Below, one piece after another: positions 1 to 62,039 of a stretch of DNA of 64,000 nucleotides (position 1 is the stretch's first letter; each line of letters opens with the position of its first letter). Below the pieces are notes generated by a model. The model made no database searches, was not told the origin of the DNA, and was given only the letters and a program-made list of their open reading frames with translations. The stretch is from Mastigocoleus sp. MO_188.B34 (GTDB taxonomy: Bacteria > Cyanobacteriota > Cyanobacteriia > Cyanobacteriales > Nostocaceae): NCBI RefSeq assembly GCF_030065675.1, contig NZ_JASJDK010000002.1:1-64000 (forward strand), written 5' to 3'. A program made the translations under genes and the position numbers.

Positions 1-1
1 T

Positions 2-944: not shown

Positions 945-974
945 ATTAAATCGCTTTTAACCTAAATTTAATTG
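945..974 (+). promoter_or_regulatory. Candidate PHO box upstream of PhoX-like gene
   Basis: Three 8-bp units spaced 11 bp apart lie at 945, 956 and 967. The central one, TTTAACCT, matches the cyanobacterial PHO-box consensus (PyTTAAPyPyT) completely; TTTAATTG matches 7 of 8 and ATTAAATC 5 of 8. An AT-rich -10-like TATTAT begins at about 983, at a spacing suited to activation by a PhoB/SphR-type regulator. The gene start is about 240 bp downstream, so a long leader is implied. The consensus is established knowledge; the functional assignment is inference. Confidence 0.5.
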
Positions 975-1214
975 GGAAATGAAATATTATAAAATATGTC
1001 TCTCATGGTTTTATCTTGTGAGATTTGTTGATTTTGCCGTTATTTTATTTCCTCTTTGGCGTAAAGAATTACTCTATTGAAGAGAAACAAAGAATAGATT
1101 TTAGGAAATTGAAATACAGATAATTTCTTCATTGGTGGTGCTACAACTTAAGACGTTAGCCCCAATGAATTACTAACGCTAAATAGCAGACAATAGGAGA
1201 ACTAAATTTACTTC

Positions 1215-45035: not shown

Positions 45036-45203
45036 GGATAAGCGATTAGGTAATTGGTAATAAAAAACTCTTTACTCCCAACTGCTGTACGGACGCGACA
45101 TACACCCGAATTCTGTACAGACGCGTTAGCGCAGTGTAACCGCTAGGTTAACATGTCGCGTCTCTACAAATCCTTATAAATCGATAGCGTAAAATCCGAA
45201 ATC
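45036..45203. repeat. Repeat DNA separating the two halves of a ketoreductase
   Basis: A GATTGGGGATTAGGG-type STRR runs over the end of the hglE-like frame. Next comes a palindromic element with 10-bp inverted repeats GACGCGACAT (45092) and ATGTCGCGTC (45153) and the CTGTACAGACGCG motif also seen at 12600. No promoter is obvious. Confidence 0.75.
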
Positions 45204-46949
45204 ATGATTGCAACAACAACTCAAATTCATTCCTCATCAGTTTTTCTCGTTAGTGGTGGAGCTAAAGGTATTACAGCGAAATGTGTCATAAAACTAGCCC
45301 AACACCATGATTGTAAGTTTATTCTTTTGGGGCGATCGCAACTTTTGGATACCGAACCTGATTTTGCAATTGACTGCTATGAAGAAGCGGTATTAAAAAA
45401 ACGCATTATGGAGTATTTCCTCTCCCTAGGAGAGAAACCGACTCCCATGAGTGTGCAAAAAGCGTATAAAGAAATTACTTCTAGTCGAGAAATTAAAACA
45501 ACTATAGCTACAATTACAGAAGCAGGAGGTGAAGCAGAATACCTCAGCGTTGATGTTACTGATGTTGATGCTTTAAAGACAAAAATTGCAACTATTAGCG
45601 AGCGCATCGGAGCAATTACAGGTATCATTCATGGAGCGGGAAACTTAGCTGACAAGTTAATTGAAAAGAAAACTCCAGAGGATTTCGAGAAGGTTTACAA
45701 TGCCAAGGTTAAAGGATTAGAAAATCTTCTCGCTTGTGTGGAAACAACTCAATTAGAGCATTTAGTTTTATTTTCCTCCGTGGCGGGATTTTACGGTAAT
45801 ATCGGTCAAACTGATTATGCGATCGCGAATGAAATCCTAAATAAATCAGCCCATCAAATTAAACAACGTTACCCATCATGTCATGTAGTTGCAATTAACT
45901 GGGGTGGTTGGGACAGTGGAATGGTAACCCCAGAGTTAAAGAAAGAGTTCGCTCGTCGGGGTGTGGAAATATTACCGGTTGAAGTTGGTACGCAAATGTT
46001 GGTTGAAGAGTTAGATCCTGTCAATCATCAAACAGCGCAGGTTGTGATTGGTAGTCCCATTACACCACCACCTATACCTTTAGATACGCAAACAAAAACC
46101 TATCGAATTCATCGTCAACTCCACCGTGTAGAAAACCCATTTGTGGAAGACCATATCGTGGGAGGTAAGCCAGTTTTACCGGCGACTTGTGCGGTATCGT
46201 GGATTATTAATGCTTGCGAACAATTATATCCTGGCTATAAGTTTTTTACCTACAAAGACTTCAAGGTTTTGAAGGGAATTTCTTTTAATGAAACTTTAGC
46301 GAATGAATATATCCTGGAAATAAAAGAACTTTCTAAAGTTGATAGCGAAGAGATTATTTTTCAAGCAAAAATCTTGAGTTACAATCAAATAGGAAAAATA
46401 AATTATAACTTTAGTATTTCCGAGATTCATTTAGTTAAACAACTTCCCGAACGTCCGACTTACGAGTCATTAAATCTTAATTCCGATAACATTATTACTA
46501 TTATAGGTGATGATTTTTATCAGCAAGGAAAGTCGGAAATTTTCCCCTTATTTCATGGACTTGCATTTCAAGGAATTACAAAAGTCTTAAATATTAGTCC
46601 GAAAAAAATTACTACTGAATGTGTTTGGAAAGGTATATCGGACGAACAAAAGGGTCAATTCCCTGTGATGAGGGTAAATCCCTATTCAATTGATTTAAGT
46701 ACCCATCCTTTATGGATTTGGATTCAGTATTACCATCAGGAAGTTTGTTTACCCGCAGGCTTGCAAACATATAAGCAATTCGCGCCAACACCAATAAATA
46801 AACCGTTTTACGTTTCTTGTGAAGTGAAAACTAAAACAGCAAGTAGCATTAGTGCTGATTATATAGTTCATGACGAACAAGGATTAGTATATTCATACCT
46901 TTTAAATACCAAAGGAACTATCATACCTACTGAATCAATTAATAAGTAA
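45204..46949 (+). CDS. Ketoreductase (catalytic half) plus dehydratase of the hgl synthase
   Basis: A 581-aa protein. Residues ~12-270 are the catalytic SDR half of a polyketide ketoreductase: FLVSGGAKGITAKC (NADPH loop), and LFSSVAGFYGNIGQTDYAIANEIL with the Ser and Tyr. Residues ~305-575 are a hot-dog dehydratase of the PUFA/PKS type (VENPFVEDHIVGGKPVLPATCAV, catalytic His in DHIVGGKPVLP). Together with the structural KR half at the end of hglE it would reduce and dehydrate the beta-keto chain. The gene follows hglE by 168 bp on the same strand, so co-transcription is likely. The Anabaena name for this part (hglF or hglD) is not certain to me, so no symbol is given. Confidence 0.85.
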   Translation: MIATTTQIHSSSVFLVSGGAKGITAKCVIKLAQHHDCKFILLGRSQLLDTEPDFAIDCYEEAVLKKRIMEYFLSLGEKPTPMSVQKAYKEITSSREIKTTIATITEAGGEAEYLSVDVTDVDALKTKIATISERIGAITGIIHGAGNLADKLIEKKTPEDFEKVYNAKVKGLENLLACVETTQLEHLVLFSSVAGFYGNIGQTDYAIANEILNKSAHQIKQRYPSCHVVAINWGGWDSGMVTPELKKEFARRGVEILPVEVGTQMLVEELDPVNHQTAQVVIGSPITPPPIPLDTQTKTYRIHRQLHRVENPFVEDHIVGGKPVLPATCAVSWIINACEQLYPGYKFFTYKDFKVLKGISFNETLANEYILEIKELSKVDSEEIIFQAKILSYNQIGKINYNFSISEIHLVKQLPERPTYESLNLNSDNIITIIGDDFYQQGKSEIFPLFHGLAFQGITKVLNISPKKITTECVWKGISDEQKGQFPVMRVNPYSIDLSTHPLWIWIQYYHQEVCLPAGLQTYKQFAPTPINKPFYVSCEVKTKTASSISADYIVHDEQGLVYSYLLNTKGTIIPTESINK

Positions 46950-47080
46950 TAAGTAATAAGTAATGAGTAATGAGTAATGAGTTAAAAAGAAGAAACAATA
47001 AGTAATGTTTTTCATTTTCATTCAATTACAAATTACGAATTACAAATTACCCATTACCAACTACCCATTACCCAATCCCC
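46945..47080. repeat. TAATAAG/TAATGAG short tandem repeats
   Basis: Heptamer repeats (AGTAATA, AGTAATG) begin at the stop codon of the KR-DH gene and pass into ACCCATTACC-type units. They fill most of the gap before the next synthase gene. Confidence 0.75.
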
Positions 47081-47089
47081 AAATTTATT

Positions 47090-50000
47090 ATGGAAAAAAT
47101 TGCAATAATTGGCTATTCATGTCTGTTCCCTGGTGCAAAAAATCCGGAAGAGTTTTGGCAAAATCTTATTAATAATCGAGATTCAACTTCATCTATTACT
47201 TCTGAGGAGATGGGGATAGATCCGAATATTTTTTATCATCCCAAAAAAGGTGAAGCCGATAAAATTTATTCTTTAAAAGGTGCATTTATTCGTAATTTTG
47301 AGTTTGACTCCAATGGGTATAGTTTACCGGGAGAGTTTTTAGAAAGCTTAGATGACACCTTTAAATGGTCGCTCCAAGTTGCAAAACAAGCTTTACAACA
47401 TAGTGGTTATTTAAATCAAACTTCTTTACTTGCTAAATGTGGGGTAATTTTAGGTACCCTTTCCTTACCAACAAAATCTTCTAATCAATTATTTGCTCCC
47501 ATCTATGAGCAGGTGCTTGGATCTGCACTCAAAGAACTTTTACAAGATGAAAACTTTAATTTAGCTTCCGTAGAAAAATTAAAAAGACCTGAAAGTTTAA
47601 ATTCAACTTCAAATTCAAATTCAAATTTAAATTCAAACTCAAACTACAATGCAATGGTTTCTGGTTTACCAGCAGCGATCGTTGCTCAAGCTTTGTCTCT
47701 TTCAGATATCCATTTTTCCCTTGATGCTGCTTGCTCTTCTCCATTGTATGCAACTAAATTAGCGTCCCATTATTTATGGACACATAAAGCCGATTTAATG
47801 ATTGCTGGGGGTATTAGCTGCGCAGATCCGCTATTCTTACGAATGCTGTTTTCGGGAATTCAAGGTTATCCGGAAAACGATTTTAGCCGTCCTTTAGATA
47901 AAAATTCCCGGGGTTTAGCTACCGCTGATGGTGTAGGAATGGTAGTTCTCAAACGTCATAGCGATGCAATTCGAGATGGCGATCGCATTTATGGAGTTAT
48001 CTGCGGTAATGGTCTTTCTAACGATGGTAAGGGTAAACATTTGCTCAGTCCCAATTCTAAAGGACAAGAATTGGCGTTTGAAAGAGCTTACCAAGAAGCA
48101 CAACTAGATCCAAAAAGTATTGATTATTTGGAATGTCATGCAACTGGTACTTTACTCGGAGATACCACTGAATGTAATTCCGTAGAAAACTTTTTCGGTA
48201 AACATCAAGCGAGTCCACTGATAGGTTCTGTCAAAAGCAATGTGGGTCATTTACTTACTGCTGCTGCTTCTGTCAGTTTGATTAAAGTTCTTTTGAGTAT
48301 GTCGAAGGGAGTGATCCCAGCGACTATCAATATTGATCAACCTATGGGTGAAGAGAATCAAGTAATTTCGCCCCAAAGTATTGTTACCAGTAATACTAAT
48401 TGGTCAGAGAGTAGAAGTGTGAAAAGGGCTGGTATTAGTGCTTTTGGTTTGGGTGGTACTAATGCTCATATGATTCTCGAGCAGGGAAATTCAGAGACGC
48501 TAGTTAATGGGGAAGAACCACTGAAGCTAGCGAAAATGGCGATCGTGGGAATGGATACCTTTTTTGGCGGTTGCGATGGTTTAGATGCTTTTGAACGCAG
48601 TATATATGAGGGAAAACAGCATTTTGTTCCCTTACCTCCAAAAAGATGGCATGGAGTTGAAAATCAAACTGAATTGCTGAAAAAGTATAATTTTCCCCAA
48701 GGGAAAGCGCCGATGGGTGCTTACATTGAAGACTTTGAAATTGATACTGTCTCCAGCAAAATTCCACCCAACGAACTAGACAAACTTAACCAACAACAAC
48801 TTTTATTACTCAAAGTTGCTCAACGCGCCTTAAAAGATGCAGATATCAATCCAGGTAGCAATGTTGCAGTTTTAATCGCTAGCGAAACAGAACTTTCGGT
48901 TCACCAATTACAACAAAGATGGAATTTAGCTTGGGAGATTAAGGAAGGCTTAATTGCTGGAGAAATTTCCTTAGATACCGATAAAATTAACCAATTAGAA
49001 ACGATTATTAAAGATGGTATTCATAATCCGGTAGATAGCAGCGAATACGTCAGTTATATTGCTAATATTATGGCGAGTCGGATTTCTGCTTTATGGGATT
49101 TTACCGCTCCGACATTTACTATTAGTGCTGGTGAAAATTCTACCTTTAAGGTTTTAGAAGTTGCACAACACCTGTTAACTACCGGAGAAGCTGACGCTGT
49201 CTTAGTCGGTGCAGTTGATTTAGCTGGTGGTTTAGAGAATGTTTTGCTTCGGAATCAACAAGCGAAGGTCAATGATAATGTTAACACTTGTTCTTTTGAT
49301 ACTAAAGCTACTGGTTGGATCGTAGGTGAAGGTGCGGGTGCTGTTGTTCTCAAACGTCATGAAATCGCCAAACAGGAGAATCAGCGGATCTATGCATTAA
49401 TTGATGCAATTAGTTTTGCACAGCAACACCCACAAGAAAATTTAGTAACTGATAAAAATCTATTAACTGACAAGAATCCAGAAACGGTTCAGCAAGTATG
49501 TGAAAAAGCTTGCAATCTTGCTGGAATTACACCATCCCAAGTTGAATATTTGGAAGTTTTTGCTAGCGGTATTCCCGAAGCAGATCAAGCAGAAATTACG
49601 GGTTTAATTGGAGCTTATCCCAAAGTTGGAAATGAATTAACTTGTGCAATTGGTACGGTTAAAGCTAATATCGGTCACACCTATGTAGCCTCGGGAATTG
49701 CTAGTTTAATTAAAACCGCTTTGTGCTTATATTATCGATATATTCCCGCAATTCCCAAATGGTCTGGTGTCAAAGAGGAAAAAATCTGGTCGGGTAGTCC
49801 GTTCTATGTCGCTTCAGAATCAAGACCTTGGTTCGTTGGTAAACAAGCAAGCAAAAGAATTGCAGCTATTAATAGTATGGGAAGCGATGGGAATTACGCC
49901 CATATAATTCTTTCCGAAGAACCTGAACAAACAAAACGCAGCAGTAATTATTTACAAAAAACACCCTTTTATCTCTTCCCGATCGCAGGTGAAAATCGCG

Positions 50001-51907
50001 AGCTATTAATAGCTAAGGTCGAAGAATTACAAAATACTATTGATAATGCAGATAATCTTGCTGCAGTTGCAAATCAAACTTTTCATAAATTTCAACAATA
50101 TTCCCACAAAAGCTACACTGTAGGGATTTTGGGACGGAATCACCAAGAATTAACCAGAGAGTTAAGAGCCGCAATTAAAGGAATTAACCTCGCATTTGAA
50201 AAGGGTGAAGATTGGCAAACACCTTTAGGTAGTTACTTTACAGCCCAACCCTTAGGAAAACAAGGAGAAATTGCTTTTGTTTATCCTGCTGCGGTTAATT
50301 CCTATATCGGTATCGGTCGCGATTTGTTCCGTTTATTTCCCAAAACCCATGATGACTTAGCAATAAAAAGTGCTGATAGTGTTGCTGCTGATGTTTCCAG
50401 TATGGTCTTTCCTCGCAGCTTAAATAAATTATCCATGAGACAGCTGGAAAAACTCGAACAGCAACTTTTAGAGGATTCCTCAGCCATCTTTGAAACTGAT
50501 ATCACATTTGCTAAATTAATTACTAGGATTATCCGTGAAGACTTCCAAATAAAACCCCGATTTGCCTTCGGTTATAGTCTAGGCGAAACCAGTATGATGT
50601 CTGCGATTGGCGTCTGGAATGACTTCAATCAAGCCATCAAATCCTTCCATTCCTCTCCACTATTTAGTAATAGATTATCCGGTGCTAAAAACGCCGTACG
50701 GGAATACTGGGGATTACCACCTCAAAAGCAATCTTTAAATCGAGAGCAAAACCTTTGGGGTAACTATGTTTTAATGACAACTCCAGAACAACTGAGAAAA
50801 TTCCTCCAATACGAAAAGTACGCCTATTTAACTCAAATTAATACCCCAGAAGAAGTCATTATTGCAGGAGATCCTAAAGCTTGCGAACGAGTTATTAAAA
50901 CCTTAGGTTGTAACGCCTTTCGCGCTCCCTTCGACCACGTAATCCACTGCGAAGCGATGCATTCTGAATATGGCGAAATCACCAGGGTTCATAGATTACC
51001 AGTTGCAGAAAATATATCTGATATTACCCTGTATTCTTCTGCTAAATACGCCCCAATAGCCATTGAAAGCAACACAATAGCCGAGAGTATCGCTCAAGGT
51101 TTATCGCAACAAATAGATTTTCCCAAACTCGTCAATCGTATTTATAAAGACGGAGCCAAAATATTTATCGAAACCGGTGCAGGTAACGTTTGTTCGCGAT
51201 GGATTGACAAAATTCTCAATAACCAACCACACGTTTGTGTCTCCCTTAACCGCAGGGGTTTAGACGACCGTACAGGATTAATTAAAGCACTAGCAAAACT
51301 CTTAAGTCATCAAATATCTATGGATTTATCGCCACTTTACAGTCAAACAGAAGAAACCAGCAAAAAATCAAAATTGACACTACGAAAAGTTACCTTGGGA
51401 GGGGAGAGTTTTACTGAGAAGATTTTAACAGCAGAAAACAGAAAACTCTTTCAGAATATCCTTAAAAAACAAACCGTTAAAAAACAAGCAAAATCAAAAA
51501 TCACTCAAGAGACGATAAACACAAGCACCATTCCCGCAAACAAAAAAACTCAACCCACTCCATCATTGAGCAAAAAACAATCTGCATCTCCAACCAAGCT
51601 TGAGAAATCGCCAATGAATAATCTTTCCAGTGCAAATACCTCCAGTAAAAACGTCTCCAGCACAATAGTCAAAGCGATCGCCAAAAAATCCGAAATTCCA
51701 TCTCGTCCAATCGAGCAGAAACTAGCCCATACAGTCAAGCTCTCTAACTCAAATAAATCTCAATATCAACAATTAACTACCAACAACTCATTAGCGAAAA
51801 AAACCCATAGATCTTTCCTTAAATCTCGACATGAATTCAGCCAACAAATTGGTGACATTATTCAATTGCAACTAATTTGTGCAGAACATCTATTGAGTAA
51901 GGAGTAA
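47090..51907 (+). CDS. hglC: Hgl synthase subunit, PfaC-like: KS-CLF-AT
   Basis: A 1605-aa protein. The first ketosynthase (~1-470) has the active Cys in DAACSSPLYATKLA (near 213), ECHATGT and SNVGHLLTAAA. The second (~495-960) lacks the Cys: the site reads ISAGENSTFKVL, so it is a chain-length-factor-like partner. An acyltransferase-like domain (~1080-1480) has GYSLGETSMMS with the Ser near 1161. The last ~125 residues are Lys/Ser/Thr-rich and disordered. It would extend and set the chain length of the glycolipid alcohol together with HglE. In Anabaena I recall these domains as more than one gene (hglD and hglC), so this may be a fused form; the symbol is tentative. A hexanucleotide repeat inside KS1 adds an Asn/Ser run at ~173-187. 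Confidence 0.8.
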   Translation: MEKIAIIGYSCLFPGAKNPEEFWQNLINNRDSTSSITSEEMGIDPNIFYHPKKGEADKIYSLKGAFIRNFEFDSNGYSLPGEFLESLDDTFKWSLQVAKQALQHSGYLNQTSLLAKCGVILGTLSLPTKSSNQLFAPIYEQVLGSALKELLQDENFNLASVEKLKRPESLNSTSNSNSNLNSNSNYNAMVSGLPAAIVAQALSLSDIHFSLDAACSSPLYATKLASHYLWTHKADLMIAGGISCADPLFLRMLFSGIQGYPENDFSRPLDKNSRGLATADGVGMVVLKRHSDAIRDGDRIYGVICGNGLSNDGKGKHLLSPNSKGQELAFERAYQEAQLDPKSIDYLECHATGTLLGDTTECNSVENFFGKHQASPLIGSVKSNVGHLLTAAASVSLIKVLLSMSKGVIPATINIDQPMGEENQVISPQSIVTSNTNWSESRSVKRAGISAFGLGGTNAHMILEQGNSETLVNGEEPLKLAKMAIVGMDTFFGGCDGLDAFERSIYEGKQHFVPLPPKRWHGVENQTELLKKYNFPQGKAPMGAYIEDFEIDTVSSKIPPNELDKLNQQQLLLLKVAQRALKDADINPGSNVAVLIASETELSVHQLQQRWNLAWEIKEGLIAGEISLDTDKINQLETIIKDGIHNPVDSSEYVSYIANIMASRISALWDFTAPTFTISAGENSTFKVLEVAQHLLTTGEADAVLVGAVDLAGGLENVLLRNQQAKVNDNVNTCSFDTKATGWIVGEGAGAVVLKRHEIAKQENQRIYALIDAISFAQQHPQENLVTDKNLLTDKNPETVQQVCEKACNLAGITPSQVEYLEVFASGIPEADQAEITGLIGAYPKVGNELTCAIGTVKANIGHTYVASGIASLIKTALCLYYRYIPAIPKWSGVKEEKIWSGSPFYVASESRPWFVGKQASKRIAAINSMGSDGNYAHIILSEEPEQTKRSSNYLQKTPFYLFPIAGENRELLIAKVEELQNTIDNADNLAAVANQTFHKFQQYSHKSYTVGILGRNHQELTRELRAAIKGINLAFEKGEDWQTPLGSYFTAQPLGKQGEIAFVYPAAVNSYIGIGRDLFRLFPKTHDDLAIKSADSVAADVSSMVFPRSLNKLSMRQLEKLEQQLLEDSSAIFETDITFAKLITRIIREDFQIKPRFAFGYSLGETSMMSAIGVWNDFNQAIKSFHSSPLFSNRLSGAKNAVREYWGLPPQKQSLNREQNLWGNYVLMTTPEQLRKFLQYEKYAYLTQINTPEEVIIAGDPKACERVIKTLGCNAFRAPFDHVIHCEAMHSEYGEITRVHRLPVAENISDITLYSSAKYAPIAIESNTIAESIAQGLSQQIDFPKLVNRIYKDGAKIFIETGAGNVCSRWIDKILNNQPHVCVSLNRRGLDDRTGLIKALAKLLSHQISMDLSPLYSQTEETSKKSKLTLRKVTLGGESFTEKILTAENRKLFQNILKKQTVKKQAKSKITQETINTSTIPANKKTQPTPSLSKKQSASPTKLEKSPMNNLSSANTSSKNVSSTIVKAIAKKSEIPSRPIEQKLAHTVKLSNSNKSQYQQLTTNNSLAKKTHRSFLKSRHEFSQQIGDIIQLQLICAEHLLSKE
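47596..47650 (+). repeat. Hexanucleotide microsatellite inside the KS coding frame
   Basis: About eight degenerate copies of TCAAAT/TCAAAC encode NSTSNSNSNLNSNSN, just before the MVSGLPAAIVAQ segment that leads into the active-site strand. The frame is kept because the unit is 6 bp. Confidence 0.8.
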
Positions 51908-52018
51908 TGAGTAAGGAGTAATGAGTAAGGAGTAAGGAGTAATGAGTAAGGAGTAAGGAGTAATGAGTAGTAAGTAAGTAAATAAGTAAGTAAATAAGTA
52001 AGTAAATAAGTAAGAAGT
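51900..52018. repeat. AGTAAGG/AGTAATG tandem repeats with TAAGTAAGTAAA array
   Basis: Heptamer repeats (GAGTAAG, GAGTAAT) start within the last codons of the KS-CLF-AT gene and change at ~51970 into four 12-bp units of TAAGTAAGTAAA. Open frames across it on the other strand (Leu/Ile/Tyr-rich) are artefacts. Confidence 0.85.
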
Positions 52019-52164
52019 AACCTAACCCCAATATGGCTAAAGCCACGCCCTTAGGCTCCGCCGACGCCGCAGGTTCTAGCTGTGCTACCTCCGGATCCAT
52101 TAACGCTAATCCCAATATGCCGCAAGGCGGTATGCAGTGCTATCCCCAGTCGCAAATCCCCAAC

Positions 52165-53838
52165 ATGAACATCACAAACCTCCCATTAAACAAACAAAAT
52201 AATGGTCTTGGCTATTACACTTCCTCATCCAATCAACATCGAGGTTGGAAAGGTTCATTAGCTTGTGTATCCTTCGATCCTACAGATATTAGAGATAAAC
52301 TCCAAACATTAAATAAACCATGTTACATCGTCAAAGTCGAAGACCAAATTGGTGTAACTAATGACGGTTATTGTCCCCTTGATAATGGTAAAAAGGCACA
52401 GATAGAAGTTTTATTTGACCTTCCTCCCCTATCTATCAAACAATTAGGCGACCCCAATTTCCTCTCCTTTCATAATGTTAAATACGCCTACACAACCGGA
52501 GCAATGGCTGGTGGTATCGCCTCAGAGGAAATGATTATCGCCCTAGGGAAAGCAAAAATCCTTGGTTCTTTCGGTGCAGGTGGTTTAACTCCAGAACGAT
52601 TAGAAGCCGCAATTAACCGCATTCAACAAGCTTTACCCAACGGACCTTACGCATTTAATTTAATTCATAGTCCCAACGATCTTGCAATTGAACGTAAAGC
52701 TGTAGATTTGTACCTCAAACATAGGGTAAGAACAGTTGAAGCATCAGCATTTTTAGATTTAACACCCAATATTGTTTATTATCGCGCTGCAGGGCTAAGT
52801 GTAAACTCCGCCTCAGAAATAGAAATTAAAAATAAAGTCATTGCTAAAATTTCTCGTCGCGAAGTTGCAAGTAAATTCATGCAACCAGCACCACTTAAAA
52901 TCCTCAAGCAACTCCTGGAGCAAGGATTAATTACCGAATCACAAGCAACCCTAGCTGCAAAAGTCCCGATCGCCGATGACATTACAGCCGAAGCAGACTC
53001 CGGTGGTCATACAGACAATCGACCTTTAGTTTGTCTTTTACCTTCAATAATTGCCTTAAGAGACGAAATTCAGGCAAAATATAACTACAAAAAACCCATT
53101 CGAGTCGGAGTCGCGGGAGGAATTGCAACCCCCCAATCCGCCCTTGCAGCATTTATGATGGGTGCAGCCTATGTAGTTACTGGTTCAATTAATCAGTCTT
53201 GCATTGAAGCCGGAACCTCTCCGCATACTAAAAAATTATTAGCCCAAGCTGCTATGGCTGATGTGATGATGGCTCCAGCAGCAGATATGTTTGAAATGGG
53301 GGTCAAACTCCAAGTACTCAAACGGGGAACAATGTTTCCCATGCGAGCGCAAAAACTATATGAAATATATCGGAATTACAACTCAATTGAAGATATCCCC
53401 ACAGTCGAAAGAGAGAAATTAGAAAAACAAGTTTTCCGTCAAACTATTGACGAAGCATGGAAAGCAACCGTTGATTATTTATCCCAAAAAAATCCCCAAA
53501 AACTCCAAAAAGCAAATAGCAATCCAAAAATGAAAATGGCGTTGATTTTCCGTCGCTATTTGGGACTATCCTCACGGTGGTCTAACTCAGGAGAAAAAGG
53601 TCGGGAAGTCGATTATCAAATTTGGTGTGGCCCGGCGATGGGAAGCTTTAATGACTGGGTAAGAAATTCATATTTAGCCGAACCAAATAATCGCCGAGTG
53701 GTTGATGTTGCGAATCACATCATGAAAGGAACCGCTTACTTATACAGAATTCAAAATCTCAAAATTCAAGGATTACAACTATCCGATTACTACACTCAAT
53801 ACGTTCCTAATTTTTCAACATTGGAACTTCAACACTAG
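52165..53838 (+). CDS. hglA: PfaD-type enoyl reductase of the hgl synthase
   Basis: A 557-aa FMN-dependent TIM-barrel protein of the PfaD family (PUFA/polyketide trans-acting enoyl reductase, 2-nitropropane-dioxygenase fold). Motifs: AYTTGAMAGGIASEEMIIAL, GSFGAGGLTPERLEAAINRI, DITAEADSGGHTDNRP and GAAYVVTGSINQSCIEAGTS. It would saturate the growing chain made by the KS/KR/DH proteins. The frame stays open to an ATG at 52033, but those 44 codons fall in GC-rich dispersed repeat DNA also present at ~32360-32475, so I place the start at 52165 (MNITNLPLNK), giving the usual family length. The symbol hglA follows the Anabaena order and is tentative. It ends inside a 14-bp repeat directly before hglB. 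Confidence 0.85.
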   Translation: MNITNLPLNKQNNGLGYYTSSSNQHRGWKGSLACVSFDPTDIRDKLQTLNKPCYIVKVEDQIGVTNDGYCPLDNGKKAQIEVLFDLPPLSIKQLGDPNFLSFHNVKYAYTTGAMAGGIASEEMIIALGKAKILGSFGAGGLTPERLEAAINRIQQALPNGPYAFNLIHSPNDLAIERKAVDLYLKHRVRTVEASAFLDLTPNIVYYRAAGLSVNSASEIEIKNKVIAKISRREVASKFMQPAPLKILKQLLEQGLITESQATLAAKVPIADDITAEADSGGHTDNRPLVCLLPSIIALRDEIQAKYNYKKPIRVGVAGGIATPQSALAAFMMGAAYVVTGSINQSCIEAGTSPHTKKLLAQAAMADVMMAPAADMFEMGVKLQVLKRGTMFPMRAQKLYEIYRNYNSIEDIPTVEREKLEKQVFRQTIDEAWKATVDYLSQKNPQKLQKANSNPKMKMALIFRRYLGLSSRWSNSGEKGREVDYQIWCGPAMGSFNDWVRNSYLAEPNNRRVVDVANHIMKGTAYLYRIQNLKIQGLQLSDYYTQYVPNFSTLELQH

Positions 53839-53868
53839 AATTCCAACACTAGAATTCCAACACTAGAG
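53828..53868 (+). repeat. Three tandem 14-bp repeats at the hglA/hglB junction
   Basis: Copies of TTCCAACACTAGAA start at 53828 (one base short), 53841 and 53855. The first supplies the last codons and TAG stop of the reductase gene; the last runs into the GAGGTG ribosome-binding site of hglB. Confidence 0.85.
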
Positions 53869-53877
53869 GTGTGATTA

Positions 53878-55413
53878 ATGATGACTTCAGACATTTCACA
53901 AACATTAAATACAGCCGAAGAAATCCAAGACTGGATGACATCAAAGTTAGCAGAAATTATTAAAGTTAGCCCCGAAGAAATAGATATTCAACAATCATTA
54001 GAAGATTATGGTTTAGACTCGGCAAATGCCATGGTTTTAGTCACCCAAACTGAAAAAAAATTGGGATTAAAACTATCACCAACATTATTATGGCATTACC
54101 CAAATATTGAAGCACTTTCCCAACGTTTAGCCGAAGAAATTGAAGTATCGGGTAAAGATAATAGCCAAACAGTTGAAAATAATCATACTTCACCCTTTGC
54201 AAATAGTAAATCTGTACCGAATTTAGCAGCAGAAGCAGTCCTTGACGAAACTATCTATCCTGCATCCAAATCTTTTCACTTTACAGCTAATCCAGAAAAT
54301 GTTTTCTTAACAGGAGGAACTGGCTTTTTAGGCGCATTCTTAATTTACCAATTACTCCAGGAAACAGATGCAGACATTTATTGCTTAGTCCGGGCTGCTA
54401 ACTTAGAAGAAGCTAGAAATAAACTCAAAAATAAACTTAAACAATATGCTATTTGGCATGAAGAATATAGTCCCAGAGTTATCCCTGTTTTAGGCGACTT
54501 ATCCCAACCATTACTAGGTATCAGTAAAGAAGCTTTTGAAATGTTAGCTGCAAACATGGATGCAGTTTATCATAGTGGGGCACAATTAAATTATGTTTAT
54601 CCTTACTCAGCACTCAAAGCAGCCAATGTTCTAGGAACCCAAGAAGTTTTACGCTTGGGATGTTTAATTAAAGTTAAACCCGTACATTATGTTTCCAGCG
54701 TTGCAATCTTTGAGTCCCCTGCTTATGCTGGTCAAGTTGTCAAAGAAAACGATGAATTCAAACATTGGGAAGGAATTTTCCTCGGTTACTCCCAAACCAA
54801 ATGGGTAGCAGAAAAACTCGTGACAATAGCAGGTGAAAGAGGACTTCCCGTAACCATCCACAGACCACCATTAATTTCTGGAGATAGTCGCACCGGAGTT
54901 TGCAATCCAGATGATTTTATTAACTTAGCTCTCAAAGGTTGTATCCAAATGGGAGTTTTCCCCGACGTAGATTATATGTTGGATGCATCCCCAGTCGATT
55001 ATGTCAGTAAAGCGATCGTTCACCTATCGCGACAGAAAGAATCCCTCGGTCAAGCCTTCCACCTACAGCATCCAGAACCAGTTCCCTTCACCACCTTGAT
55101 TGATTGGTTGAAATCCTTAGGGTTTTCCATCGCTGTCATTCCTTACGAAAGGTGGCAAAATATGCTAGTGGAAAATTTATCCTCTCCAGATAACCCTCTG
55201 TATACTCTACGACCTTTCCTTTTAGAACCTTGGACAGAAGAGGGACTAACCATACCAGATTTATACTTGCAAGCAAACAGACCTATTGTTAGCACTGAAG
55301 CGACCGTAGACGCACTTGCTCCCGGTAATGTTGTTTGTCCACCAATAGACTCTCAGTTATTTATGGCTTACTCTACTTACTTAATTCAAAATGGTTTTTT
55401 GGAATTAGGTTAG
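53878..55413 (+). CDS. hglB: ACP-thioester reductase (HglB/HetM)
   Basis: A 511-aa protein. An N-terminal ACP (~12-95) has [17 protein letters not shown] with the phosphopantetheine Ser. A C-terminal NAD(P)-binding thioester reductase (~135-500) has [20 protein letters not shown], then [13 protein letters not shown] and [13 protein letters not shown] (Y-x3-K). The family reductively releases an acyl-ACP as aldehyde or alcohol, matching the role of HglB (HetM) in freeing the glycolipid aglycone. The length agrees with the Anabaena protein (about 506). GAGGTG lies 7 nt before the ATG. The gene follows the enoyl reductase by 39 bp, so it is very likely in one operon. In Anabaena hetN follows; here it does not. 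Confidence 0.9.
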
Positions 55414-55716: not shown

Positions 55717-55756
55717 GAAAACCGCTTTTAGTGCTTGCTTCCAGGAGCGGTTTTTT
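55717..55756. terminator. Bidirectional terminator between hglB and the membrane protein gene
   Basis: The stem AAAACCGCT / AGCGGTTTT with a 20-nt loop is followed by six T on the plus strand and four T on the minus strand. It overlaps the stop of the convergent gene, so it can serve both. It lies about 300 bp after the hglB stop. Confidence 0.75.
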
Positions 55757-56852
55757 AATCTTGCAAACACTCAGAAATATCTATTTTTTTAACTTCACTG
55801 CTCGAGAAGATCTTTGCTTGGTTTTGGTCCTCAGCCTTAATATTAGCATCTCTAAAAGAACAGAATGGACCAATAGAAGCTGAAAAACAGCCCTTAATAA
55901 AAGCTTGTTTGTCTTCTCCTGTTGCCAGAATATGCAGGTAATTCCCATCAGGTCCGCCTAGCCCATCCATAATCGTATAATTATCACCCTCGAATATAGC
56001 TATACTTTTAATTTCGCCTATCTCATTTTTTATCAAATCACAATTTTTAACATCCTTGAGGGCATTTTGGTATTCGTATTCAGTAATAAAATAACTTGAA
56101 TTGCCAGCGTAGAAAGTTCTTATCTCGGGGGGAATAATTAATCCTGGAAGAGGATAATTATCTACAACTGCAACAAAAGAAATAGTTACCAATACTATTA
56201 ACGGAACTCCTAGGACTAATCTTTTAGCTATTGGTACTGGATTTATACGTGATGAAGAGATTCTTTCTGCAACTATGCAAGCTATTAAAGGGTTAATTAT
56301 TGTTGGAAGAAAACCTACACTAGCAGTTAAACTAACCAATATTATTTTTTCTTTTAAAGTATTTAGATTTAGTTTTTTGTTTAAAATAAAAAATAGTAAG
56401 AAAGAAATGGCTATTAAGGCGAATACAGGCACATCGTATCCACCGCCCTCCTTTAATGTATAAGAAACACCTATTAAATCTAATATATTATTAGCAAGTG
56501 AGATTAAAAAAATATTCACCATATATAAGATAAATACTGTAATCGGCACAAGTAATTTGAATAGCCATGATAGCAGAACAATTAAATTAAATACTGAGCC
56601 TAAAAATATAAAAAACAGAATGAATATTAATCTCTTAGTATTTTGTATGTTACCCAGCATCCAGTTTAATATCGCAGAAAATGAAAAAACTACCCAAAAT
56701 AAAATTGTGTAGCTTAAGGGGTATTCTGAGGGATGTAAAATCCAATTACCTAGGAATTGGTCGCTATGAACATAACTTAGCAGTCCAAATAAAAGGAAGG
56801 TAGGTATAGCCCAACCAAATATTAGAAAACTTGTTTTTAATTTGGTTATCAT
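55755..56852 (-). CDS. Hypothetical multispanning membrane protein
   Basis: A 365-aa protein that I do not recognise. At least seven hydrophobic segments cover the first ~230 residues (FGWAIPTFLLFGLLSYVHSD, FSAILNWMLGN, LIFILFFIFLG, LLVPITVFILYMV). A soluble C-terminal part (~235-365) has several Cys and charged residues (NCDLIKNEIGEIKSIAIFEG, FCSFRDANIK). The last helix leads into FAGNSSYF-like polar residues, so the tail may face the periplasm. No transporter or enzyme motif stands out. It faces hglB across a shared terminator and lies downstream of the Gly/Glu-repeat gene on the same strand. Base composition is AT-rich, as in nearby acquired DNA. Confidence 0.6.
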   Translation of the reverse strand: MITKLKTSFLIFGWAIPTFLLFGLLSYVHSDQFLGNWILHPSEYPLSYTILFWVVFSFSAILNWMLGNIQNTKRLIFILFFIFLGSVFNLIVLLSWLFKLLVPITVFILYMVNIFLISLANNILDLIGVSYTLKEGGGYDVPVFALIAISFLLFFILNKKLNLNTLKEKIILVSLTASVGFLPTIINPLIACIVAERISSSRINPVPIAKRLVLGVPLIVLVTISFVAVVDNYPLPGLIIPPEIRTFYAGNSSYFITEYEYQNALKDVKNCDLIKNEIGEIKSIAIFEGDNYTIMDGLGGPDGNYLHILATGEDKQAFIKGCFSASIGPFCSFRDANIKAEDQNQAKIFSSSEVKKIDISECLQD

Positions 56853-56893
56853 AATGAAATTTGCAATTGTAACGAGTGAGCTTACTCCTAAAG

Positions 56894-57130
56894 TTAATGT
56901 ATAACGCTTTTAGAATCCTGAAGGAAAAACTCGCTGTTTGCCTCAAAATCTACTGAGGGTGGGAAAAAAATAGGAGGTCTGCCGCCTTCACCATCACCGC
57001 CATCGCCGCCTCCACCCTCGCCGCCTTCACCCTCGCCGCCTTCACCCTCGCCGCCTTCGCCGCCATCACCGTCACTTTCATCTGCGTCTCTTAGGCTTAA
57101 TACAGAACTTGGGGCTAATTCCTTTTAGTG
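56894..57130 (-). other. Gly/Glu-repeat reading frame reached by a -1 shift from the 57115-57438 gene
   Basis: In the -1 frame relative to the upstream small gene, an open stretch of about 77 codons reads KELAPSSVLSLRDADESDGD, then GGEGGEGEGG-type repeats from tandem 15-bp units (GGCGGCGAGGGTGAA), then GGRPPIFFPPSVDFEANSE and a TAA stop at 56894. It has no start codon of its own. The GC-rich repeat stands out from its AT-rich surroundings. Confidence 0.6.
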
Positions 57131-57438
57131 AGCGAGTCTTTAGCATCACTTAATAAAGATTCTTGAGAATTTGTTATCCCTGTCAACAAATCTTTTTCTG
57201 CAGAAGAATCCGTTGTCAAGGTAGAAGTGCTTGGGTTTACTAAGTTGCTAGACTCAATTACATCTGAGTCGAATGGCGTCATTTCAATTGAGCTATCAAG
57301 AACAGGAATACTGAAACTTCCTGAACTATTGATTAGATCGCTATATTCTAAAGGATTGTAACCATCCAAAGGATTTTTTGTTTCTAAAATTCCGTTACTT
57401 GGGCTAAAAGCTTCTTGAGATAATTCTTTATAACTCAT
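57115..57438 (-). CDS. Small Ser/Asp-rich protein, probably truncated by a frameshift
   Basis: A 107-aa acidic, Ser/Thr/Asn-rich protein with no hydrophobic segment (SYKELSQEAFSPSNGILETK, PVLDSSIEMTPFDSDV). I do not recognise it. The ATG has a good GGTAGGGAA leader. It ends LTKRN-stop at an ACTAAAAGG run; a -1 shift at these As would continue into a 77-codon Gly/Glu-repeat tail with an FFPPSVDFEANSE end. The joined product of about 180 residues resembles a peptide or surface-protein precursor, but that is inference. A sequencing indel, a real mutation and programmed shifting are all possible. Confidence 0.5.
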   Translation of the reverse strand: MSYKELSQEAFSPSNGILETKNPLDGYNPLEYSDLINSSGSFSIPVLDSSIEMTPFDSDVIESSNLVNPSTSTLTTDSSAEKDLLTGITNSQESLLSDAKDSLTKRN

Positions 57439-57832
57439 TTCCCTACCTTTATTAGCTTCTTTTAGGTGATTGGCTTTTTTATTATCACCCTACAGCTGGG
57501 TATAGTAGATGGTTATCAAGTAGTTAGCAAGCGTAATTAAAAAGCTCAAATTTGTTTTTATTACACATTTTACAAGCATATTTAGCCAAAATAGTTCAAT
57601 ATTCGCCGTTAGGGTTTATACATCTCTCGTTTATTAGTTTTTCTGTTTATTTACAGTCAAAAAAAGTAATAAGCTGTGCTTTCTTTGACAAGCAATCTCA
57701 CACCCTGACTCTACATCTTCACTATGTAGGAATTGCAGGTATTTGAACTGGAATACAAAAAGCAATTAGCTAATTATTTCCTAATACCAGTTCTTTATAA
57801 AGATGCGCTAAATAAAGCTTCGAGAATGTGGT

Positions 57833-58024
57833 CATAAGAGGTGAGAGAAATAATCACGCTCCCACTGATTTTTTCCAACAGGTTTTACACCAGGAGCGGT
57901 AATTAAACGTCCCCCGAATAGTCTTTAACCCAAGACGAGTTTCGTCTTGACACATATATCTGAGTCGTTTACCTTCTCCGAATTCTTCTTGCAAGAATTT
58001 GAGGGCTAAAGGAAGTTTTTTTTA
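57833..58024 (-). pseudogene. IS630-family transposase remnant
   Basis: On the minus strand the frame reads PLALKFLQEEFGEGKRLRYM, then CQDETRLGLKTIRG with the DDE-type Asp. A frameshift follows, after which the second frame gives LITAPGVKPVGKNQWERDYF. This is the middle of an IS630-family transposase. The N- and C-terminal parts and the inverted ends are missing. Confidence 0.8.
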
Positions 58025-58100
58025 AAGTGAGATTGGCTTTGTGGATGCTGTCCACTCCTGTTTGGCACAGGTCAGTACGCCCCTACGGTCAACAAGCATT

Positions 58101-58188
58101 AGCTCCAATATATAAAAGCTTTTCCCTAGAACGATATCCAATAAACATAGACATGGAAACTCACGGACCATCTTGACAAGGACGAACT
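58101..58188 (-). pseudogene. Duplicated 3' fragment of the neighbouring 2OG oxygenase gene
   Basis: About 88 bp here repeat, with roughly a dozen mismatches, the last codons of the oxygenase gene at 58569-58660, covering the GPRVSMSMFIGYRSRE-like end. The copies share GATATCCAATAAACATAGAC and flanks. Nothing upstream of the fragment belongs to the gene. It is a partial duplication or the scar of a deleted tandem copy. Confidence 0.85.
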
Positions 58189-58295
58189 AAAAATGCCGTA
58201 ATTTGGGAGCACGGAAACTGTAAAGTAACCCGCACTCATGAGATGAGAATCTGCAAAACATAGGTAAAGTGAGACGTCAGAAATGAATAGCTCAC

Positions 58296-58324
58296 ATAAA
58301 AAGACCCAAGACCCAAGTCTTGGG
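58296..58324 (-). terminator. Probable terminator downstream of the oxygenase gene
   Basis: On the minus strand the stem CCCAAGA / TCTTGGG with a 6-nt loop is followed by TCTTTTTAT. It lies about 245 bp after the oxygenase stop, between it and the duplicated fragment. The stretch 58325-58568 shows nothing else. Confidence 0.6.
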
Positions 58325-58568
58325 AAGATAATTTATTATTTAACACACACACACTAGCACGTTGCTCTCCGTGCCAAAGTCATTAGGAGTACTCATTAAC
58401 TCACATGAATATTACTTAAAGGCCTTAGTGTGAGTTTAATAACCTTTTATCAGAGTACTACTAACACTCTGTTACTAGTGTGATATCGATCTTGTTTTTA
58501 TTGCGACCAAAGTTTGTTAATTTAATCGCTGCAGTCACATAACCCGTGCCATAATTCTGCTATAAATA

Positions 58569-59690
58569 CTAGCTCCAATATGTCAAAGGCTTTTTCCTAG
58601 AACGATATCCAATAAACATAGACATAGAAACTCGTGGACCATCTTGACAAGGGCGAACACTATGAATTCTTCCAGAATCAAATAGAATCAATTCTCCAAC
58701 TTTTGGTTTAATTTTTAATGTCGCACTTGGTAAACTGTTGCGATCAATGATCCCTTCATATTTGTATTCTCGATCCCTTTGTGGAACGGCTCCCAGGCGT
58801 TTATCGCGAATTGCTTTTCCTGTCGAGATAGATGGCTTCAGTTCCCAAACCTCTAACTCACCTCCAGATTTAGGAGTTTGTAGATAAATGTTTGCAGATA
58901 ACTGAGTAATAAAATTGTCAAAGGGATGAGCCGGAGGAATACCAACATCCAAGATATCCCGCGCAAAGATATCTTGGTGGGGTGGTAATTCAAAATTATC
59001 CTCGAATACACGACAAATTCCAGCCAACATCGTTTGATTGTGGACATTTTCAATGTGAGCACCCGGTACCCAGATTTCTTGTAATTCAAGTCTGAGTTTA
59101 TCGAGGGGTGACAAATGAGGAAAACAGGTTTGTCGAAGACTTTGGATCGAAACTTGAGCTTGCTCGTAATAACATTTGAGCATTTCTAAAGAGCAACTAG
59201 TTTCAAAAAAAGTAATCCCAGTTCTTTGTACTCCTACATCTGGTACTCTTTTATAACGCTCTAAAGTTCTTTCTTTGATGAGTTCTTGACTAATTTTCTT
59301 TGCTTCTCGAGCGGGGTAATAATTAGGAATACGTAGTACAAGATATTTACCATTTAATAGATCGATTAAGTCATTTGATTTTAGTTTCTGGGATATTTTT
59401 ATTAATACTTTTTGGACTTCTTTATCCCGCAAGCGCAACCCGTATATTCCATATTTTTCATATGATGTTTTCCAAAATTGCAGGGAACTAGGGGATACAC
59501 CTAAAATTGTCTGTATTTCTTCATAAAAGTAGCCTTGATAAACAAGCTTAACTGCTAATGCTTTTCTTACTTCATTAGCTTCTGGGTGGAGAGCGATAAA
59601 TTCTTGCAATTGGGCTACACATCGAGAAATTTTTGTGTAGTCTATCATCTCTTCCGCCTTTTCTATAGCCTGTAGATGCAGATTCACCAT
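58569..59690 (-). CDS. 2OG-Fe(II) oxygenase with N-terminal transposase-like HTH
   Basis: A 373-aa protein. The first ~95 residues (LQEFIALHPEANEVRKALAV, YEEIQTILGVSPSSLQFWKT, YGIYGLRLRDKE) have the pattern of the N-terminal helix-turn-helix of IS630-type transposases. The rest is an Fe(II)/2-oxoglutarate oxygenase-like fold: HQD in LPPHQDIFARD (~238), the distal His in FDSGRIHSVRP (~342) and a 2OG-binding Arg in GPRVSMSMF. All metal ligands are present, so it should be active. The substrate is unknown; family members hydroxylate proteins, small molecules or nucleic acids. The HTH could give DNA targeting. The ATG is in an unremarkable leader. An IS630 remnant and a partial copy of its own 3' end lie downstream, consistent with transposition history. 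Confidence 0.75.
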   Translation of the reverse strand: MVNLHLQAIEKAEEMIDYTKISRCVAQLQEFIALHPEANEVRKALAVKLVYQGYFYEEIQTILGVSPSSLQFWKTSYEKYGIYGLRLRDKEVQKVLIKISQKLKSNDLIDLLNGKYLVLRIPNYYPAREAKKISQELIKERTLERYKRVPDVGVQRTGITFFETSCSLEMLKCYYEQAQVSIQSLRQTCFPHLSPLDKLRLELQEIWVPGAHIENVHNQTMLAGICRVFEDNFELPPHQDIFARDILDVGIPPAHPFDNFITQLSANIYLQTPKSGGELEVWELKPSISTGKAIRDKRLGAVPQRDREYKYEGIIDRNSLPSATLKIKPKVGELILFDSGRIHSVRPCQDGPRVSMSMFIGYRSRKKPLTYWS

Positions 59691-61307
59691 GGTCTTTTGC
59701 TAGAGTGGCACAGCCATAAGTATTTTCGCTTACTGCTTTAAAAAAATCAAATTGAAACCTTGTTTTAATATTCTGTTTTTATGTGTGTATAATTTGTATT
59801 TTTGCGAACGCATGAAAACACTGAGAACAATATAAAAAATGACTTAAAATATTATGTACAAATACTTCTAGGAATTTAAAATTAGACAATACTCGATATA
59901 TAGCTATACTTTATTTATTAGTTGATAATCTTATTTTAGAATTCGCTCGAACTGAAATTTATAAATTCTTAGTGACAATCAAAAGTTATTATAAATATAT
60001 TTAAATATAGGTATTCTCTGCAGATTTTCAAACGAATAGATTCCTTATAGATGCGATACATTACCTATTTACAATATTATTTTGATGAATGACAGTACTT
60101 ACGCAAACACGACGATAAATTAGATTTTCGCGATTGCTTTTTTACGTCGCCCGTGCGTAAATCATAAATTATTTAGGATTGCTATAGCTTATGAATAATA
60201 ATGAATAAAAATAAATAATGTTAGTAGTTAACTTTTTAAGGATTTATACAATATTTTAATTAATAAAAATAGACTTATAAACTACTAGTAATAAATGCGT
60301 AGTAAGAATGATTATATAACAAAAAAATTAAGTCAGAAGATTTATTTCAACGATATATTCAAGATAAGTGTAACAAAATATTTAAATATAATTGCGGATA
60401 AAAATCAAGCAACAATATATGCACACTTATCGTTAATTATGGACTTTTTAGATATTTATATTTCATGTTTAATAATCATTAACAAACAAAGTTATGATGA
60501 AAAACTGTACAAGCTATATAATGGCAGGAAGGTCAAAAAACAACATTAATTTTGACAATTATCTCTTGATTAGCAATGAAAATAGTGGAATAAACTTCGT
60601 TAAGTTGATGATTGTGGGAATCTATCGTTAAATGCTTAATTGCTAACTTAAGAGTAAGCTTATCTGGTTGAATGCCAGATATTTTGAGAGGTGTGTAGGA
60701 AGAGTTCAATCATTCTATTTGTTGATGTCAATTTCCTAGAAAATTGCAATCAATTTGACTGACTATCATCTTTTTCGTTTTCCCCAGTAAATTTTTGGAT
60801 AAATAGTGGAAGACACCATATCGAATGCAAAGACATCATCTAGTATATGGCTGCAAAAAATCAAGTTATCACTAACTCCGCAGTTTTGAATTATATTCTA
60901 GATAAAAATTCTAAAAATGAGGGAAAACATTTCAAGCTGTATGGATTATAAGTTTCACATTTGTATTGATTACCTCAGGTTCAACCTTCGTTTTTGCAGA
61001 CTAAATGTTTGATATTTCATTCGTATAAGCCTGACCAAAACAGGTTGGATTAATCTATGCAAGAAAATTTCCACAGAGAATACCTTATTTATTGAATACT
61101 GTTTGGTGTAAGCATTCATTTAAGTTGGGAAGTCTTTGCAAATTAAACCTCATTCCCATCCATATCTATAATTTGTAATTGGGTCAACGCTCAAGTTTTC
61201 AAATTGGATGTGGTTGATTAAAAAAATTAAAATCCGCATTTGGGTGAATTTAAACTCAGTCGGATTGAACAATTCTCCTTTCAAATTTGGGCATTGGTTA
61301 ATTATTA
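59691..61307. other. Long AT-rich gap where Anabaena carries hetN
   Basis: About 1.6 kb without a convincing gene. An 84-codon frame at 60295-60549 is Lys/Ile/Tyr-rich and has no recognisable family; it is not called. I searched for an SDR-type hetN (TGxxxGIG, Y-x3-K) in this gap and saw none. A MITE-like palindrome is at 60097-60162. The hetI promoter must lie near the right end. Confidence 0.55.
60097..60162. mobile_element. Degenerate MITE-like palindrome with ACTTACGCA ends
   Basis: ACTTACGCA at the left and TGCGTAAAT at the right are near-perfect inverted ends of a 66-bp palindrome (inner CGACG against CGTCG). The ends match the element at 2-124 (AGGACTTACGCAA), so it is a diverged or related member. 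Confidence 0.6.
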
Positions 61308-62039
61308 ATGAGTAAATCGACTGTTATGAATGATACCTGGCGACCTGTGCCAGCAAATTTAACTCTGTTGCAAGATGAGATCCACGTTTGGCGAATCAAT
61401 CTTGATATACCAGAAGAAAGGGTACAACAGCTATTAGAAACATTATCAACAGATGAGGTCGCTCGTGCTGACCGATTTTATAAAGAGCAACATCGCCAAA
61501 GGTTCATCGCCGGTCGTGCTACGCTGCGCAGTATTTTGGGTCGTTATTTGGATATAGAACCACAAAAATTAGAGTTTTGTTATGAGCCTTTAGGTAAACC
61601 TGTTTTAGCGGAGACTTGTGGAGGAAATCAACTGCACTTTAATTTATCTCATTCTCAGGATTTAGCATTATGTGCAGTTAATCGCGATCGCCCAATTGGG
61701 ATAGACCTAGAGTATATTTCGCCAATTTCTGATGTTCTCAACCTTGCAAAACAGTTTTTTTCTCCTAAGGAATATTCAATAATGCGATCGCTTCCACCGC
61801 ACCAAAAACAACAAACCTTTTTTCGCTATTGGACTTGTAAGGAAGCTTATTTGAAAGCAACGGGTGCAGGGTTAGCACAGTTACAAGAAATTGAAATAAA
61901 TCTCTCCCCTGGAGAAAGCGCCAAATTGAAAACAGATTCTAACTGGAGTTTACTAGAACTAGTTCCCCAAAGAAATGCTGTTGCTGCAGTTGCAATTAAG
62001 GGTTCTGGGTTTAGTTTAAAGTGCTGGCAATATTCATAA
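61308..62039 (+). CDS. hetI: Sfp-type phosphopantetheinyl transferase HetI
   Basis: A 243-aa 4'-phosphopantetheinyl transferase. Signatures: GRATLRSILGRYL, PLGKPVL, HFNLSHSQDLALCAV, IGIDLEYI (metal-binding Asp and Glu) and FFRYWTCKEAYLKATGAGL. It transfers phosphopantetheine from CoA to the Ser of ACPs, here very probably the two ACPs in HglE and the one in HglB, and likely also the primary fatty-acid ACP. HetI is the enzyme of this type next to hetN and hglB in Anabaena. Here it is separated from hglB by about 5.9 kb of inserted DNA, so it is transcribed apart. The start at MSKSTVMND is typical; an internal Met lies six codons on. Confidence 0.9.
   Translation: MSKSTVMNDTWRPVPANLTLLQDEIHVWRINLDIPEERVQQLLETLSTDEVARADRFYKEQHRQRFIAGRATLRSILGRYLDIEPQKLEFCYEPLGKPVLAETCGGNQLHFNLSHSQDLALCAVNRDRPIGIDLEYISPISDVLNLAKQFFSPKEYSIMRSLPPHQKQQTFFRYWTCKEAYLKATGAGLAQLQEIEINLSPGESAKLKTDSNWSLLELVPQRNAVAAVAIKGSGFSLKCWQYS

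Follow-up and report, generated by a model that had tools for sequence, protein, structure and literature searches.

Sequence-based analysis of an IS630-type transposase helix-turn-helix joined to a WelO5-like oxygenase in Mastigocoleus

Introduction

How does a 2OG-Fe(II) oxygenase gene come to begin with the helix-turn-helix (HTH) of a transposase, and what might such a domain do at the front of the enzyme? The question is raised by a gene in the window, by which we mean the whole 64,000-nucleotide stretch of DNA analysed here (positions 1 to 64,000 of contig NZ_JASJDK010000002.1 from Mastigocoleus sp. MO_188.B34). By comparison of this sequence with its counterpart in Mastigocoleus testarum and with more distant relatives, we could establish the anatomy of the gene, the insertion sequence (IS) origin of its front end, its vertical descent and the constraint on it.

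Anatomy of the fused gene and its oxygenase part

The features of the locus are given in Table 1. IS630 transposases align with the fused protein to about residue 87-90 and unfused oxygenases from about residue 89-97. By reading of the sequence, TTG codons inside the frame, near L85 and L87, could also start an HTH-less protein.

Table 1. Features of the fused gene and of the DNA adjoining it in the window.
Feature	Coordinates	Strand	Basis
Fused gene, 373 aa, ATG to stop	58569..59690	-	ORF call; counterpart in M. testarum
Transposase-derived part, residues 1-90: IS630 N-terminus and first HTH	59421..59690	-	HTH_23 above cut-off; IS630 identity
Fusion junction, approximate, residues 88-92	59415..59429	-	Inferred from where both sets of relatives stop aligning
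2OG-Fe(II) oxygenase part, WelO5-like, residues 93-373	58572..59414	-	Pfam; full-length alignment to unfused relatives
Span with H238, D240, H343 and R353, putative iron and 2OG ligands	58632..58979	-	Invariant in 6-row and 9-row alignments
IS630-derived leader, directly 5' of the ATG	59691..59768	-	Alignment to 15 IS630 leaders
Remnant of IS630 left terminal repeat, ATTTGATTT core kept	59737..59762	-	IS copies and leader alignment
Partial copy of oxygenase 3' end with internal stop, outside the fusion	58100..58187	-	Repeat and M. testarum alignment
Decayed IS630 DDE of another subgroup, internally deleted, outside the fusion	57781..58051	-	IS relatives

The C-terminal half of the fused protein matched the Pfam families 2OG-FeII_Oxy_3 (38 bits) and WelO5 (35.8 bits; cut-off 27), and the WelO5-type profile PF22814 was above its cut-off for 9/9 aligned members. 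The 9-row profile retrieved PDB entry 3w20 (E 1.4e-9) and the WelO5 chains (E 1.7e-8), and by profile and PDB match alike the fusion resembles the WelO5-type oxygenases (PF22814). The metal-site residues H238-x-D240, H343 and R353, whose ligand roles are assigned from the superfamily, were invariant in 6/6 and 9/9 alignment rows. The window copy alone carries a 10-residue insertion after residue 297, which is absent in the five other rows. An AlphaFold2 model of the full-length protein from six rows had a mean pLDDT of 41. With an H-x-D...H motif, a downstream arginine and a profile match, the oxygenase part is, as judged from its sequence, a complete member of the 2OG-Fe(II) superfamily.

The halogenase WelO5 has an H-x-G site, and WelO5-type halogenases in general are marked by an H-x-G/A halide site. 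The fusion differs from it in carrying H-x-D for H-x-G and an added N-terminal HTH, and a WelO5-type halogenase was ruled out on the H-x-D site, in which D240 is invariant in 9/9 rows; H-x-D in place of H-x-G points to a hydroxylase-type site. No DNA-modifying 2OG dioxygenase family (TET/JBP, AlkB) appeared among eight Pfam matches up to E 10. The oxygenase appears nearest to small-molecule enzymes, and nothing in these comparisons would favour DNA as its substrate.

The fusion is flanked by polyketide-type genes (KR, PfaD-like and a carrier protein with reductase) and a phosphopantetheinyl transferase gene (39465-55413 and 61308-62039), which we take to resemble the heterocyst glycolipid genes (hgl, hetI). 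In relatives, the gene adjoining the phosphopantetheinyl transferase was too variable to give the ancestral layout of the locus. A 365-aa ORF (55755-56852, minus strand) that looks membrane-like by eye lies where M. testarum gave no alignment and had no Pfam match at E 0.01. Step repeats of 9 and 15 bases at 56980-57080 (minus strand), which would code for a glycine-rich GGDGGEGG-like sequence, adjoin a 107-aa ORF without a Pfam match.

Origin of the N-terminal domain and of the leader

HTH_23 was detected by Pfam at residues 38-86 of the fused protein with 26.3 bits against a cut-off of 24.6. The best NCBIfam HTH match was transpos_IS630 (E 6e-4, residues 43-90), followed by transpos_IS3 (E 0.08), both below NCBI's own cut-offs. 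Against transposase N-termini, tblastn gave E values down to 9e-29, which are not expected by chance, and all 19 IS630 loci searched had an HTH match at 54-72% identity, several of them from residue 1. The donor group consists of IS630-family transposases of Nostoc-type cyanobacteria (VRKALAVKLVYQGY group). The fusion is like this group in its N-terminus, first HTH, leader and left terminal repeat, and unlike it in being without the second HTH, the DDE and the right end; in Pfam searches up to E 10, the second HTH (HTH_33) and DDE_3 were absent from the fused protein and both present in an IS copy. The HTH tree placed the fused pair on the donor side of a 100/100 split from the group of the downstream DDE remnant, on a long branch (1.26) along which the nearest relative was not resolved. 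Apart from the fusion itself, no donor-group copy was found in the window genome, and M. testarum gave two good and one weak donor-group matches. An HTH scan of viral contigs found no relative.

In both fused genes, homology to the IS group of the HTH continues for about 75 bp upstream of the ATG, in sequence that matches the left end of these elements; the ATTTGATTT core, the AATAC and CTA blocks and the start region are shared with the IS leader and terminal repeat. Against 15 IS630 leaders, the window leader had a mean score of 35.7 and the M. testarum leader one of 31.5, compared to maxima of 28.7 and 28.6, respectively, in 500 shuffles (z 8.1 and 4.8) and to 15.1-19.4 for 80-nt control stretches upstream of seven unfused genes. 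The leaders were taken from 15 of the 19 IS loci, with L022, L023, L026 and L028 left out for a misplaced start or an incompletely seen leader, a choice that favours the leader match. Among 25 control windows further up the window sequence, five scored 33.8-35.9 and the other 20 scored 16.9-24.4; the five high values mark a second left-end-like remnant near 60010-60053 rather than background. This remnant (minus strand, inside 60004-60187) looks like a second decayed left end of a donor-type IS630, and 60004-60187 is missing from the M. testarum alignment.

Terminal repeats were present in five of the six IS copies examined. An exact 8-mer scan of positions 56000-60500 of the window and 1-3100 of the M. 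testarum locus L033 recovered the left remnant and no right IS end; a further 8-mer at 59374 lies inside oxygenase code and is without an M. testarum counterpart. Upstream of the gene, the two species are most alike (identity 0.88-0.92) within the IS-derived leader, from about -64 to -29. A promoter scan detected no promoter-like site on the gene's strand inside the leader, and the 11 promoter-like sites in the whole region were no excess over shuffles (8.8, sd 3.3).

An earlier note on this DNA had proposed that an HTH of the IS630 transposase type was possibly captured by the oxygenase. Profile, percent identity and the upstream IS match agree on the type of the HTH, and the IS630 homology, the leader match and the HTH tree bear out the in-frame union; in the searches made, the HTH did not group with ordinary regulators, an outcome that the note had named as speaking against its proposal. 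On these comparisons, the descent of residues 1 to ~90 from an IS630-family transposase can be regarded as confirmed, and the capture by the oxygenase holds up.

Distribution and descent of the fusion

Rather than being widespread without relation to IS630, which had been named as a second outcome counting against capture, the fusion was found as a full-length match (residues 1-373) in at least 2/217 family genomes, which belong to a single genus: the window genome (G000) and G094, which we took to be M. testarum BC008. G094 has a listed contamination of 38%, and its contig is syntenic with the window. The M. testarum fusion (L033:1320-2411, 363 aa) is 91% identical to the window protein, and synteny between the two extends to both sides of the gene. 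In a sample of 388 genomes of the order, a full-length match was seen in the window genome only, among the matches listed; M. testarum is absent from these matches and seems not to have been drawn. Two genomes of that sample (G233 and G330) matched from query residue 68 on, past most of the HTH, at 48-49%. Since few candidates were scored per genome (3 in the DDE DNA search, up to 9 in the 217 genomes and up to 5 seen in the 388 genomes), these counts are lower bounds.

Both Mastigocoleus genomes also carry an unfused paralog without the HTH (74% identity from residue 90 and 72% from residue 88, respectively). In other genera, the match to relatives begins at residue 89-97, and among the relatives' ORFs that were read the HTH occurred in none but the fused ones. 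In an oxygenase tree of 16 rows, from which L001, L004, L007, L034 and L037 were omitted because they duplicate rows already present, the fused pair (99/99), the unfused pair (100/100) and all four sequences together (94/97) formed groups, which places the duplication in the stem of the genus. The fused gene and the paralog are separated by a dS of 0.86-0.96 and the two species by about 0.25, and dS is equal for the fused gene (0.251) and its neighbour (0.246). An animal haem peroxidase gene was found by Pfam just upstream of the unfused oxygenase at L002, L034 and L036, a possible conserved pair; L037 has such a neighbour by sequence likeness, and L035 has none among the ORFs listed for it. 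The fused copy is without a haem peroxidase neighbour, and the unfused copy is therefore taken to hold the old place.

We consider it probable that the gene originated by capture of an IS630 front end by a duplicated oxygenase and that its product is a hydroxylase of a small molecule in which the HTH has been kept for a function of its own. In the order of steps that we infer, a WelO5-like 2OG-Fe(II) oxygenase gene would have been duplicated in the stem of the genus, one copy staying in the old place without an HTH. An IS630 element would have inserted upstream of the other copy in the same orientation, and deletion of the remainder of the element may have brought the first ~90 transposase codons, preceded by the left end and the leader, into one frame with the oxygenase, so that the HTH would replace a short variable N-terminal tail at no cost to any conserved oxygenase part. 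The fused gene would then have been inherited vertically under purifying selection on both halves. Its product, encoded behind a leader of IS origin, would most likely be an intact non-haem iron enzyme that hydroxylates a small molecule, with the N-terminal three-helix domain retained for its own function. The enzyme might also sit on DNA, possibly on its own control region, and could there report iron, oxygen or 2-oxoglutarate.

Changes in the HTH and selection on the two halves

Of the residues invariant among 19 IS630 rows, the fusion kept 18/18 at 41-63 (helices 1-2), 4/4 at 79-86, 5/7 at 24-40 and 6/10 at 64-78, around the recognition helix. The changed positions are 35, 39, 64, 68, 70 and 71, with R35 and R39 of the IS rows being H and N in the fusion. 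Differences from the IS consensus numbered 1/23 at 41-63 versus 8/15 at 64-78 (Fisher p 0.0009, for ranges chosen after seeing the data), and variation among the IS copies is itself higher at 64-78 (0.155) than at 41-63 (0.057). A model of the HTH only, built from two rows, had a pLDDT of 69.8 and predicted helices at 39-51, 56-63 and from 67 onward. Foldseek with this model returned 210 weak PDB matches, none of them at E <=0.001 (best E 0.62). Residues 64-82 are identical in both species, which together with the changes in the recognition region suggests that this region was re-made early and then held. The HTH fold appears to have been kept, with its DNA contact changed or lost.

Comparison of the two species gave dS 0.251, dN 0.043 and w 0.171 (bootstrap upper bound 0.264) for the whole fused gene. 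The oxygenase part had a w of 0.160, the unfused paralog 0.096 and the neighbouring gene 0.052, and the fused gene is less constrained than the paralog or the neighbour. For the HTH, w was 0.190 over residues 1-90 (bootstrap range 0.050-0.547) and 0.034 over the core, residues 38-86 (0-0.169; 7.0 synonymous and 1.0 nonsynonymous changes). In neutral simulations of the core with eight substitutions, one or no nonsynonymous codon occurred in 0.06% of runs; for residues 1-90, with 6.5 nonsynonymous changes observed, the simulations yielded six or fewer in 1.1% and seven or fewer in 4.0% of runs. In simulations with neither selection nor indels, about 8% of runs leave the frame open over the 90 HTH codons. 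As the fusion was found in two genomes, the selection test rests on two sequences. For this one pair, the captured HTH appears to be under purifying selection, strong in the core and weaker for residues 1-90, and the fused protein seems to be kept by selection.

A passenger HTH is the alternative that survives best, and we give it somewhat less than an even chance. The insertion would have given the oxygenase no more than a promoter or start, and the HTH would be retained as the N-terminus of an enzyme the cell needs, serving folding, solubility or pairing without binding DNA. With residues 35, 39, 64, 68, 70 and 71 changed, DNA binding could indeed have been lost: several transposase-invariant positions around the recognition helix and two arginines were altered with the scaffold untouched, and the second HTH of the transposase, HTH_33, is missing. 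However, constraint is stronger on the HTH core than on the oxygenase (w 0.034 versus 0.160), and the identity of residues 64-82 in both species is not expected for a passenger surface, which should drift. On balance, DNA binding with a changed target seems more likely than a purely structural use of the domain on the small-molecule hydroxylase that we favour. More tentatively, the captured HTH with its re-made recognition helix could make the product a DNA-bound hydroxylase-regulator that senses iron, oxygen or 2-oxoglutarate and may control the IS-derived leader; we regard this as less likely than not.

The gene is improbable as a non-functional readthrough product or a decaying pseudogene left by the IS insertion. 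IS remnants and a decayed 3' copy surround it, its w exceeds that of the paralog and the window copy has acquired a 10-residue insertion, yet the frame is open and full-length in two species at a dS of 0.25, where in the absence of selection about 8% of simulated HTH frames would still be open. The whole-gene w of 0.171, bounded at 0.264, and the intact metal-site residues also speak against decay, which the codon counts already disfavour.

The downstream transposase remnant

A decayed IS630 DDE starts 518 bp past the stop of the fused gene, and a duplicate of the oxygenase 3' end lies between them; alignment recovered both elements, as the earlier note had described. Relatives match the DDE in two separate alignments, 58051-57848 and about 57856-57781, which indicate an internal deletion and carry the remnant some 50 bp beyond 57833, where it had been taken to start. 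Its match to IS copies in other genomes (E 9e-69) is not due to chance, and the DNA search found kin in at least 31/211 family genomes, with none in G094 among the matches listed. The 3'-end repeat comprises 74 nt at 92%. At 58187-58100, the copy has 93% identity to the gene of M. testarum and 91-92% to that of the window, and it is not recent, since it keeps bases common to M. testarum that are changed in the window gene. Past the stop of the fused gene, 58296-58561 is 81% identical to M. testarum G094:C169, which is not the syntenic locus.

It had also been suggested that this DDE was the other half of the captured transposase and that the duplicated 3' end was tied to the recombination. Intact DDE relatives carry an HTH of another subgroup, split from the donor group at 100/100, and the HTH and the DDE as halves of one transposase were ruled out on this ground. 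At the syntenic M. testarum locus, where the fusion stands, about 600 bp of other sequence lie between the fused gene and the same downstream neighbour, with neither the DDE nor the duplicated 3' end present. Their absence there suggests later or unrelated events and rules out the duplicate as a scar of the fusion. The version in which the DDE is the missing half, the duplicate is the scar and the product hydroxylates DNA is therefore very unlikely: the chromosomal order and strand (HTH, oxygenase, oxygenase end, DDE) would fit a broken transposase, but the HTH groups differ, both pieces are missing at the M. testarum locus and the nearest matches of the oxygenase are WelO5 and small-molecule enzymes. 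Hardly credible at all is an HTH from an ordinary regulator family with a mere resemblance to IS630, for which one might cite that HTH_23 is a broad Pfam family and that the fold search gave mainly sigma-factor and LuxR-type HTHs, none significant, but which is already contradicted by the 54-72% identity to transposases and by the matching leader and terminal repeat, which lie outside the coding sequence. Capture of an IS630 front end by a duplicated oxygenase remains our preferred reading.

Discussion

With one part of transposase descent, a host part that also occurs alone and a single open frame in two syntenic species, the gene would class as a host-transposase fusion. We found no published bacterial fusion of an IS630 HTH with an oxygenase in the open-access literature searched. 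The Tc1/mariner elements of eukaryotes belong to the wider IS630-Tc1-mariner group. In the A2 F-box genes of Caenorhabditis, according to the available account, a Tc1/mariner HTH was captured at the N-terminus in a single origin and is under purifying selection (PMC12062965). The A2 F-box genes and the fusion thus have in common a transposase N-terminal HTH at the N-terminus of a host gene. They differ in that the former form an expanded eukaryotic family with an F-box as the host part (PMC12062965), whereas the fusion is bacterial, present as one gene per genome, has an oxygenase as its host part and still shows IS leader DNA.

The same account names SETMAR and KRABINER as host-transposase fusions, which like the present gene combine a part derived from the DNA-binding region of a transposase with a host domain, and SETMAR too contains an enzyme (PMC12062965). 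In primate SETMAR, as far as it is described there, a SET enzyme is joined to a mariner transposase, whereas in the fusion, known from sequence, the first HTH only stands ahead of the enzyme. Fungal DNA transposons are described as carrying a whole gene for a TET/JBP DNA-modifying dioxygenase (PMC12730594), and both cases link a 2OG-Fe(II) dioxygenase with DNA transposons. The direction differs: the Mastigocoleus oxygenase is a host gene that acquired a transposase fragment and is not part of an element any more. By analogy with these systems, the Mastigocoleus fusion may be viewed as a bacterial counterpart of the eukaryotic host-transposase fusions.

Capture of transposase DNA-binding domains by host genes is known mainly from eukaryotes. 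The bacterial case is unusually complete, with a donor group, a leader and terminal repeat, an unfused parent, a sister species and an estimate of selection for each half. The fusion directly raises the question of whether a metabolic enzyme can acquire a DNA address from an insertion sequence.
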